Shown here: positions 20,675 through 23,064 of the stretch, in pieces
How positions within the stretch are numbered: position 1 is the stretch's first letter
Layout of the letters: every line of letters starts with the position of its first letter
IMG/VR virus record: IMGVR_UViG_3300013131_000253
Location: 1-23,156 of that record
Length of the DNA stretch: 23,156 nt
Origin: a virus
Reading direction: 5' to 3' (one strand)
Notes under the pieces: model-generated
The model's database searches: none
The model's input: the letters and a program-made list of their open reading frames with translations, nothing else
Told to the model about the DNA's origin: nothing
Made by a program: the position numbers and the translations under genes

Positions 20675-21376
20675 TCATCGCATAACATTCCAGAACAACA
20701 CACGGCCTGTGGAGTATCGCTTGACGTACTCCCAAGCCTTTGCGTCATAGTTGCTGCAGCTCGGAAACGGTGGTTTCACCTTGGCATCCTGCGCGAAGTC
20801 GAGCGGGTGAACGTAGACTTTGGCGGCGCCGACATCAGCAGGCTGCAGCGTGCGACCGATCTGCACGACGTGAAAGGATCGAGCGCTGATGCCACGCTGT
20901 AGACCACGGCAGAGAACACCTGATCCGCCGACGCACCAGACCTGATCGATGTCGCCGGCCTGCTGCTGCGCTGCTGCTGCGCGTGCGGCGATGGAAATAA
21001 ATGCAGTCTCGGTTTCAAGGCCAAAGGGCAGCAGGTAGGCGCCGGTTTGCTGGCAGTATGCACGCGCCTTGGCCTTGACGTTGCTGAGGTAGCCAGCGGG
21101 GACCTGGACGATCTTGGCGCCAGCCTGATGCGCTTCCATCGTGCGCGGGTGCGGGCGGTTGCGCTTGGCGCAGAAGATAGTTGCCTGGACGCCTAGCTCG
21201 CGTGCGGCGTGGGCGATAGCGATCTGGGCGCCACCGTAGGCGGGCGAGGCGTAGACTACCTCGCGGTGGCCTGCGATCAGCTGATCGGCGAACGAGCGCT
21301 TGGTGCCACCGGGGATGTGGTCATCACGAACGACGAGTATGCCGTCGTGGTCTTGCACCAGCGGCGGGGCGATCAC
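20675..21376 (-). CDS. PLP-dependent enzyme, fold type II (ACC deaminase / cysteine synthase-like), phage type
   Basis: Read from GTG at 21376, which overlaps the methyltransferase stop as GTGA, the protein has 233 residues. Fold-type-II features are visible: the candidate Schiff-base lysine in PGGTKRSFADQL (about K24), the Ser/Tyr-Gly loop YASPAYGGAQIAIAHAAREL that corresponds to the S-G-N-x-G substrate loop, and the phosphate-binding VWCVGGSGVLCRGLQ. Other parts are CAKRNRPHPRTMEAHQAGAK and the C-terminal PSCSNYDAKAWEYVKR / LFWNVM. It is shorter than cellular relatives (about 300-400 residues). Substrate is unknown. Coupling with a DNA methyltransferase and ParB-like gene suggests a role in base modification or amino acid supply, but this is inference. 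Confidence 0.8.
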   Translation of the reverse strand: MIAPPLVQDHDGILVVRDDHIPGGTKRSFADQLIAGHREVVYASPAYGGAQIAIAHAARELGVQATIFCAKRNRPHPRTMEAHQAGAKIVQVPAGYLSNVKAKARAYCQQTGAYLLPFGLETETAFISIAARAAAAQQQAGDIDQVWCVGGSGVLCRGLQRGISARSFHVVQIGRTLQPADVGAAKVYVHPLDFAQDAKVKPPFPSCSNYDAKAWEYVKRYSTGRVLFWNVMR

Positions 21377-22263
21377 TGAAGCACCTCGCCAAACTCCTGC
21401 GCGGGATCGAGGTCGCCGAACTGGCACTCGCCGCAGTTGGCAGCAGCACGCTTGCCGTCGCCTTTGACAAAGACAAGCACGTTCTGATGGGTTTTGCCTA
21501 GTTTGCGGCTGCTGCTGAACTGCTTGCCTGCGCGAATTGGCAGCGAACCAACTGCGGTGACAAGAATGGCCTCGTTGTAATAGTTAAGTCCTGCAGCGCG
21601 GAATGCTTCAACGGTATCACCGACGAAATTGTAGTAATTACCTTTCTTGTCGCGGACATCACCCACAACAAAGCAGGCAAACCGATCATCACGAAGCAGC
21701 GTGCAAGCCTTGGCGATGATCTCAAAGTAGGCCGACCGGAACTCGCTGTAGCTGAGCGTTGATAGATCAGATGGGTTGTCGCTGTAAACCTCCAGATCAG
21801 CGTACGGCGGGCAGGAGAACAGGAAGTCAGCCTGCACGTCGGCGCAGATGCGATCAATGGTCCGGCTGTCGCCGCAGTGCCAGACAGGCTGCGGATCGGT
21901 GGCAATGTCCTGCTGGCTGCGGTTGGCATCTACCTGCTCTTGGCGCAGCTCGACGCCGACGTACTGGCGGTTGCAGTGGCTGGCGACGATGCCACGAACG
22001 GAGCCACCAGCGAACGGGTCGAGGATGGTGCCGCCGTCTGGGCAGAACCAGCGGTAGGCCAGCTCGCATAGAACGGGATCAAAGATACTAGTGCCGGAGC
22101 TGTAGCTCTCAGGGCCTTCGTAGTAATCACGCTGAAACTCCTCGGTTGTCAGAGTGCGGCCAAGCCGCTTCTCTGCTTCCTGTTTCTTGAAGTAATACTG
22201 CGGATCGTTGCCGCTGTCTGACTTCATAAGCACGCCATCAACGTGCTGTTGCTGCTTAGTCAT
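21373..22263 (-). CDS. DNA methyltransferase (motif I before motif IV), likely detached half of a ParB-methyltransferase fusion
   Basis: The 296-residue protein has the SAM-binding motif I LDPFAGGSVRG (81-91), a downstream acidic strand YVGVELRQEQVDANR, and catalytic motif IV FSCPPYADLEVY (149-160). Motif I preceding motif IV, with an S-C-P-P-Y form, fits N6-adenine or N4-cytosine amino-methyltransferases of phages; the target base and site cannot be told. SIFDPVLCELAYRWFCPDGG (59-78) and KTHQNVLVFVKG (257-268) are hallmarks of the methyltransferase half of phage ParB-methyltransferase proteins. The proposed ATG at 22263 follows an 8-G tract with no usable Shine-Dalgarno sequence, which makes independent translation doubtful. 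The stop overlaps the PLP-enzyme GTG (GTGA). Confidence 0.88.
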   Translation of the reverse strand: MTKQQQHVDGVLMKSDSGNDPQYYFKKQEAEKRLGRTLTTEEFQRDYYEGPESYSSGTSIFDPVLCELAYRWFCPDGGTILDPFAGGSVRGIVASHCNRQYVGVELRQEQVDANRSQQDIATDPQPVWHCGDSRTIDRICADVQADFLFSCPPYADLEVYSDNPSDLSTLSYSEFRSAYFEIIAKACTLLRDDRFACFVVGDVRDKKGNYYNFVGDTVEAFRAAGLNYYNEAILVTAVGSLPIRAGKQFSSSRKLGKTHQNVLVFVKGDGKRAAANCGECQFGDLDPAQEFGEVLQ

Positions 22264-22277
22264 ACCCCCCCCACGAC
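22259..22277. repeat. Direct repeat copy 1 with 8-base poly-G/C tract
   Basis: The sequence GTCATAC8ACGAC style element (GTCATA, eight C, ACGAC on the plus strand) matches the copy at 22444-22463 base for base except for one C fewer. On the minus strand it ends at the methyltransferase ATG. Confidence 0.9.
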
Positions 22278-22323
22278 GTGTTCGCCGCGCATTAGATCTT
22301 GGCCAAAGGTGCGTGCGTAATTC

Positions 22324-23064
22324 TTAGACAACTGCCCGTCCCCTGCCGTCGCCGCGTGCTTTGCTGCGTCCATAGTCAGCGGCTGGCATCATCGATCCCC
22401 CTGGGCTGGCCTTGTCGGCTGATTGTCCGGTGATATGCCCCATGTCATACCCCCCCCCACGACCCAGCTCCGACTTGATCCCCAACGCCAGCCATCCCCG
22501 CTTGCGCTCCTGCCACCAGCCCTCACGGGCGTTGAGCACGCTGAAGGGCGGGATGCCGAAGCGATCGGCCAGACTTGATGACTCCGGCGCATCTGCCTGA
22601 TCGCCCGCGCTGCCGTCGTCATCACCGAGCGGGTCCTCCCCACCCATCAACGAACCCAACTCCGCTTCGCTGAACCCCACCAGCGACAGATCAAACCCCA
22701 GCCCGTCCAGGTCCGTCAGCTCAGCACTCAGCAGCTCCTCATCCCACCCGGCATTCAGCGCCAACTGGTTGTCCGCAATCACATACGCCCGTCGCTGATC
22801 CGCCGTCAGGTGGTCCAGCACCACCACCGGCACCTCACGTAGCTCCAGCTCCTGCGCAGCCAGCAGCCGCCCATGGCCCGCAATGATCTCACCATCGCCA
22901 GCGATCAGCAGCGGATTTGTGAAGCCAAACTCCTGGATGCTTGCGACGATCTGCGCTACCTGCTCAGCGCTATGCGTTCGCGCATTTCGGTCATACCCTC
23001 GCAGCTTGCTAATCGGCCAGCGCTGCACCCCATCGGGCACCGTAATCGGCATCAGTAAAGCCAT
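22324..23064 (-). CDS. ParB-like nuclease-domain protein, N-terminal half of a ParB-methyltransferase system
   Basis: Residues about 12-115 are a ParB/Srx-like domain: VQRWPISKLRGYDRNARTHS, EIIAGHGRLLAA (59-70, with the G-H-G-R box) and VIADNQLALNAGWDEELL (95-112). Residues about 125-140 (LVGFSEAELGSLMG) are also typical. An acidic linker (GGEDPLGDDDGSAGDQ) leads to LADRFGIPPFSVLNAREGWW and QERKRGWLALGIKSELGRGG (165-204), which in other phages link ParB to the methyltransferase. The end (PAADYGRSKARGDGRGRAVV) precedes TAA at 22324. The downstream methyltransferase is in the same frame, 20 sense codons after this stop. No plasmid-type ParA partner is near, so partitioning is unlikely; DNA recognition or nicking tied to methylation is more plausible. 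The start is ATG 23064; ATG 23052 is an alternative. Confidence 0.87.
   Translation of the reverse strand: MALLMPITVPDGVQRWPISKLRGYDRNARTHSAEQVAQIVASIQEFGFTNPLLIAGDGEIIAGHGRLLAAQELELREVPVVVLDHLTADQRRAYVIADNQLALNAGWDEELLSAELTDLDGLGFDLSLVGFSEAELGSLMGGEDPLGDDDGSAGDQADAPESSSLADRFGIPPFSVLNAREGWWQERKRGWLALGIKSELGRGGGYDMGHITGQSADKASPGGSMMPAADYGRSKARGDGRGRAVV
22444..22463. repeat. Direct repeat copy 2 with 9-base poly-G/C tract
   Basis: Plus-strand GTCATA, nine C, ACGAC. It lies in the ParB-like reading frame (encoding R-G-G-G-Y-D). It matches 22259-22277 apart from one base in the homopolymer. The offset between copies is 185-186 bp. Confidence 0.9.

Follow-up and report, generated by a model that had tools for sequence, protein, structure and literature searches.

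Our analysis indicates that a phage ParB-like/methyltransferase module is probably an SSR contingency (phase-variation) locus. Slippery repeats lie exactly where the methyltransferase (MTase) joins its partner genes, so one unit gained or lost should switch the enzyme from a longer, fused version to one that starts on its own codon, or back again. The window, meaning the whole stretch of DNA analyzed, is a 23,156-bp linear virus record from IMG/VR (IMGVR_UViG_3300013131_000253). In the window, both repeats lie in coding or initiation regions where a length change alters the reading frame. In relatives, repeats at this place exceed background and differ in length between near-identical genomes.

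Two poly-G tracts at the gene junctions

On its minus strand the window carries GTCGT-G9-TATGAC at 22444-22463 and GTCGT-G8-TATGAC at 22259-22277, which lie 186 nt apart and are the only GTCGT-Gn-TATGAC elements present. Their G9 and G8 tracts are also the only G/C runs of six or more in the whole 23,156 bp; under a first-order Markov model of the window, runs of eight or more are expected 0.27 times per window, and at least two arose in 3% of simulations. The ParB ORF (23064..22324) and the MTase ORF (22263..21373) share one minus-strand frame. An earlier note on this DNA had described two poly-G repeats identical but for nine versus eight G, with a ParB-like gene and a methyltransferase gene in a common frame and an offset of 186 nt, and all of this was borne out. 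A search of viral contigs, a set from which the closest records may have been kept out, found no near copy of the window. The features of the module are as follows:

22324..23064, minus strand: ParB-like protein, 246 aa, with a C-terminal tail (Pfam ParB_N, 9.7e-07; PHROG 15396, 4e-72; N-terminal part of PHROG 498)
22450..22458, minus strand: SSR site 1, G9 following ELGRG within the ParB tail (from sequence; relatives have G7-G15 or other repeats in the tail)
22324..22331, minus strand: 8-nt overlap of the ParB stop (TAA 22326-22324) and linker start (TTG 22331-22329), sequence GTTGTCTAAG
22260..22331, minus strand: linker ORF in frame +1, 23 codons, (M)SKNYARTFGQDLMRGEHVVGGV-stop (same peptide internal in L133, L181 and L086)
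22278..22307, minus strand: conserved motif FGQDLMRGEH (carried by 120 distinct loci)
22265..22272, minus strand: SSR site 2, G8 immediately preceding the MTase start codon, in the split state (from sequence and registers)
22260..22263, minus strand: ATGA, overlap of the linker stop (TGA) and MTase start (ATG), sequence ATGACTAAG
21373..22263, minus strand: DNA amino-methyltransferase, 296 aa, with DPFAGG and SCPPY (Pfam N6_N4_Mtase, 9.4e-11; PHROG 12517, 6e-105)
20675..21427, minus strand: PLP-dependent-enzyme-like protein overlapping the MTase 3' end (Pfam PALP, 1.3e-11; homologue in 139 fetched loci)

PHROG 498, a phage ParB-methyltransferase family, matches the two halves of the module at 2.8e-58 and 4.9e-83. 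By sequence, the ParB-like N-terminal and amino-MTase C-terminal parts fit this family, and DNA methylation is the predicted activity; a PDB fold search returned general methyltransferase folds only. The PLP-like gene belongs to the same module in many relatives. In Erythrobacter phage vB_EliS_R6L (L003 3001-4608), PLP is nested inside the MTase as a single ORF (MTase 1-117, PLP, MTase 125-284). In Pseudanabaena phage Pam4 (L004 2080-4608) the MTase contains a long insert at a similar position; the insert does not match the window's PLP protein, yet its record names the gene a PLP-dependent enzyme. The PLP neighbors and the nesting suggest a ParB-MTase-PLP module, perhaps doing more than plain methylation.

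A conserved linker between ParB and the methyltransferase

The earlier note had placed the repeats on either side of a break between ParB and MTase. The repeats do bracket it, but it is not an empty gap, since it can be read in frame +1 as a conserved linker, (M)SKNYARTFGQDLMRGEHVVGG, with the motif FGQDLMRGEHxVGG across relatives. In the window, the TTG start of the linker overlaps the ParB stop, and its TGA stop overlaps the MTase ATG. AGGGGA, which lies a few nt before the TTG, may serve as a ribosome site. Relatives show ATGGCTAA, ATGACTAA or GTGACTAA at the overlap of ParB stop and linker start. The motif is internal in the single-ORF relatives L133, L181 and L086, where ParB tail, linker and MTase form one protein, and it constitutes the methyltransferase N-terminus in L002 and L027.

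We read the linker in each register of tract 2. With the window's 8 G it ends VGGV-stop, the split state; with 6, 9 or 12 G, linker and MTase become one protein of about 319 codons; and tracts of 7 or 10 G bring it to the third-frame TAA at +5 of the MTase ATG (ATGACTAA in the window), 5 nt past that start. With its stop on the MTase ATG or 5 nt past it, the linker leaves room for the MTase to be made separately by termination-reinitiation. At tract 1, G9 completes the 246-aa ParB with its stop on the linker start, while shortening to G8 gives a ParB of 224 aa and lengthening to G10 one of 206 aa. Site 1 in relatives has G7-G15 or other repeats, with some readings completing the tail and some not. 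In the near-identical contigs L026 and L028, whose tract 2 is G11, an in-frame TAG breaks the conserved ParB tail (GCGGGTTAGGATAAGG).

In a structural model of the natural fusion L133 (523 aa), the ParB-like and methyltransferase domains are both predicted with confidence and are separated by a low-confidence segment comprising the tail and linker (residues 209-278), which is probably disordered. The SSRs fall in this segment, so frameshifts there spare both domains. In this fused relative the MTase domain is modelled with high confidence without the linker.

SSRs recur at one place across relatives

Scanning viral contigs with the MTase yielded 80 loci, to which a scan with the linker motif alone added others; most relatives are metagenome contigs. 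Among the MTase-scan loci, fixed fusions were mostly without poly-G and split genes carried G runs of 6 to 15, often two. In the motif-only loci, an SSR lay within about 50 nt after the motif in 25 of 107, versus 82 of 13,110 equal windows (0.6%) of the same contigs (Fisher p about 3e-30, not corrected for relatedness). The repeat at this second site can be G7-G13, (GA)6-7, (ACCG)6-7.5 or (AGGC)3.75, and its place is constant; (GACA)8.75, (AG)9, (GCCAA)4.8 and (AGGC)15 occur elsewhere in the junction. The ParB-MTase junction as a whole carried 1.26 SSRs per kb against 0.165 per kb in the remaining contig sequence, a 7.6-fold higher density; some loci had up to four, and 70 of the 88 consisted of G on the coding strand. 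On the figures from the Markov simulation and the Fisher test we rejected a chance origin.

Some SSRs in these phage genes are very long, such as (AGGC)15 at the L237 junction and (GACA)8.75 in the L170 ParB tail. The L111 junction combines three G tracts with (ACCG)6.25, and looking for further (ACCG)n members turned up none beyond the two already known. A third SSR site lies inside the MTase N-terminal coding region (NAIPGG), with G8-G10 in L090, L101, L137, L075 and L078; a shift there would truncate the MTase itself.

On an MTase-domain tree built with FastTree, whose weak branches are not to be over-read, parsimony puts the changes in SSR presence at 26, and well-supported branches force at least 7 of these. 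Many family members are without an SSR, in fixed fused or split forms. One SSR-less lineage (L116, L127, L169, L179, L183 and L196) has ParB and linker as one ORF and an MTase that starts at an ATGA overlap, so that the split is present here in a fixed form. Microcystis phage Mae-JY30 is split and has the linker but no SSR. Scanning a genome collection gave two MAG matches only, both alphaproteobacterial and of the same arrangement (L204 from Devosia and L205 from Sphingomonadaceae); these two give the only indication of hosts. A protein search of 398 genomes around L205 returned, besides L205 itself, distant methyltransferases only.

Tract lengths differ between near-identical contigs

By comparing assembled contigs, we identified two near-identical pairs of viral contigs that differ in tract length, each with partners from different metagenomes and all relatives of the window. 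Over 3,601 bp, L170 (G9, fused) matches L201 (G7, split) at 99.8% identity; the two differ by four mismatches and by two gap columns that equal the tract difference. L090 (G9) and L101 (G10) are 99.9% identical over 3,196 bp, with two mismatches and one gap. At the tract inside the MTase N-terminus, L075 (G8) and L078 (G9), which are 92% identical, also differ. Tract length was the same within the near-identical pairs L005/L006, L008/L009, L026/L028 and L034/L035.

Start-stop overlaps are conserved beside the tract

A start codon in the MTase frame lies within 14 nt of the tract in 29 of 32 SSR loci. Over a comparable span in 69 control loci without an SSR, a start codon overlapping a TGA stop was found in 5, compared with 26 of the 32 SSR loci within 14 nt of the tract (p = 1e-13). 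The third frame is stopped as well in 14/32 SSR loci and 0/69 controls (p = 9e-9), with the consensus RTGAGTAA. Overlaps at the SSR loci comprise 11 ATGA, 14 GTGA and two TTGA sites, with no CTGA: TGA is preceded by A, G or T in these loci and never by C, the commonest base there in controls. This pattern points to use of the MTase start beside the tract, and hence to a toggle between fused and split forms over a plain ON/OFF switch.

With start and stop overlapping beside the tract, its length determines whether linker and MTase form one reading frame or the linker stops on the MTase start codon. Registers were fused in 15 loci and split in 21, which does not differ from the 1:2 of random registers, although four of these 36 (L088, L090, L101 and L137) have extra tracts or a less clear reading. 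The earlier note's suggestion that tract length drives phase variation of a phage methyltransferase thus gains support from the enrichment, the registers and the length differences between near-identical contigs. Its idea that tract length switches between fused and split forms is also supported, except that tract 2 toggles fusion of the linker, not of ParB, to the MTase.

A proposed switch and its alternatives

In the model we favor, ParB-like protein, short linker peptide and methyltransferase would be read from three head-to-tail ORFs whose stops and starts overlap. The register in which ribosomes leave the linker would depend on slippage of the G tract that immediately precedes the MTase start. 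One register in three (G6, G9 or G12 in the window) would yield linker and MTase as a single polypeptide; in the other two, the linker would stop on the MTase start or 5 nt past it, and a separate MTase would follow by termination-reinitiation. Tract 1 would decide whether the ParB tail is complete or truncated and whether ribosomes arrive at the linker start; because the ParB stop overlaps that start, it may also set the number of ribosomes reaching the MTase. From the sequence patterns we infer the switching itself, by replication slippage, with its rate and phenotype, and both start codons are presumably used.

Most SSR contingency loci work as plain ON/OFF switches, and the MTase might likewise be made only when fused to the linker start, with the internal ATG or GTG unused and the split form OFF. 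The share of fused registers (15/36) is not far from one third, a frameshift at the third tract, in the MTase N-terminus (L075 G8, L078 G9), does truncate the enzyme, and the tract would act in this manner if the internal starts were weak. We nonetheless consider this unlikely: the stop-straddled start is strongly conserved beside the SSR (26/32 vs 5/69), it is only ever ATG, GTG or TTG and never CTG, the domain after it is complete, and in the SSR-less L116 group this ATGA split is fixed. Another possibility is that ribosomes (programmed frameshifting) or RNA polymerase (transcriptional slippage) slip on the G run, giving fused and split products at a fixed ratio from one DNA: G-GGG-GGG can be slippery, and after a -1 shift at G8 linker and MTase would be joined. 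This is highly improbable as the main mechanism, as tract lengths spread over all registers, near-identical contigs differ in the DNA, and di- and tetranucleotide repeats replace the run, a pattern that suits replication slippage rather than ribosome slippage. The G run could still leak by ribosome slippage.

In the earlier note's own model, the two poly-G repeats recombine, 186 bp are lost and ParB becomes fused to the MTase. Its arithmetic holds, in that keeping G8 gives ...ELGRGGGMTKQQQH... in a 501-residue fusion and keeping G9 gives ...GRGGGYD-stop, and ParB-MTase fusions without tail and linker do exist, with L007 joining ELGRG almost directly to a window-like MTase N-terminus. The model is scarcely credible all the same. 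The flank identity is peculiar to the window and absent from other tract-bearing loci, the 186 bp between the tracts are conserved coding sequence (ParB tail and linker), and 19-20 bp is short for efficient homologous recombination. The fused relatives inspected (L015, L016, L017 and L007) have no G-tract scar at the junction and carry unrelated linkers without poly-G, and we rejected the deletion. We give hardly any weight to a homopolymer sequencing or assembly error concealing one uninterrupted ORF. Long G runs are error-prone and the window is an IMG/VR virus record, but a change at tract 2 alone would leave ParB unjoined to the MTase, because the overlap of ParB stop and linker start is independent of tract 2. 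SSRs are moreover enriched at the same place in many unrelated contigs, and neither (ACCG)n or (GA)n arrays nor conserved ATGA overlaps can arise from error.

If the module switches as proposed, DNA modification may differ between its fused and split states; the most likely reason is that this hedges between host systems that restrict unmodified DNA and those that restrict modified DNA. Phage methyltransferases commonly protect DNA. Type IV systems, on the other hand, cut modified DNA (PMC13076061), and a bet-hedge against restriction is thus plausible. Our broader proposal is tentative: a widespread phage family would maintain dedicated hypermutable repeats at the start-stop overlaps of a ParB-MTase(-PLP) module, slippage would toggle domain tethering (fused versus translationally coupled separate polypeptides), and a phage stock would contain particles of mixed DNA modification as a bet-hedge against restriction. 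If true, phage populations would be epigenetically mixed by design, with consequences for how they get past restriction barriers and for the habit of correcting frameshifts like these in viral genomes.

Comparison with known systems

Slippery-repeat phase variation is known mainly from bacterial pathogens and from restriction-modification systems. Our search of the literature (open-licence papers) found no report of a phase-variable phage methyltransferase or ParB-methyltransferase module. A close formal likeness is M.NgoAV of Neisseria gonorrhoeae, in which a poly-G tract ends one of the ORFs hsdS1/hsdS2, one G less fuses that ORF to the next, and both split and fused forms occur among natural alleles of 6-9 G (PMC9577141). 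The window tract similarly sits at the junction of two modification-system ORFs, one register of which fuses them. NgoAV, however, concerns the specificity subunit of a bacterial Type I system, whereas here the module is a phage ParB-like/MTase one, the fused part is a short linker, and a start-stop overlap is conserved next to the SSR in the phage loci; the protein-family matches were to ParB and amino-MTase families, with none to HsdS.

In bacterial Mod phasevarions such as H. pylori Hpy300X, an SSR lies in the MTase gene and one nucleotide gained restores the fused full-length protein (PMC12003011); unlike our module, these are Type III restriction-modification genes of bacteria with no ParB-like partner. 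Hypermutable polyG tracts switch a receptor-binding protein in Campylobacter phages (Sorensen et al, 2021, as cited in PMC11868660). Going by that citation, the likeness is phage-borne SSR phase variation with poly-G, and the differences are that a DNA-modification gene is involved here and that di- and tetranucleotide repeats occur too. Phage ParB-methyltransferase fusions (PHROG 498; Listeria phage B054 gp77 and Mycobacterium prophage prophiGD43A-5) contain the same two kinds of domain, and the records of these two annotate the MTase match as a ParB-domain protein. Unlike the window, PHROG 498 fusions are fixed as far as seen, with no SSR described, among the part of the MTase-related cultured phages that we checked. 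Set against these systems, what is new is an SSR phase-variation signature recurring in a DNA-modification gene of a large, mostly uncultivated phage family, in which a conserved start-stop overlap would turn slippage into a toggle between fused and split forms.
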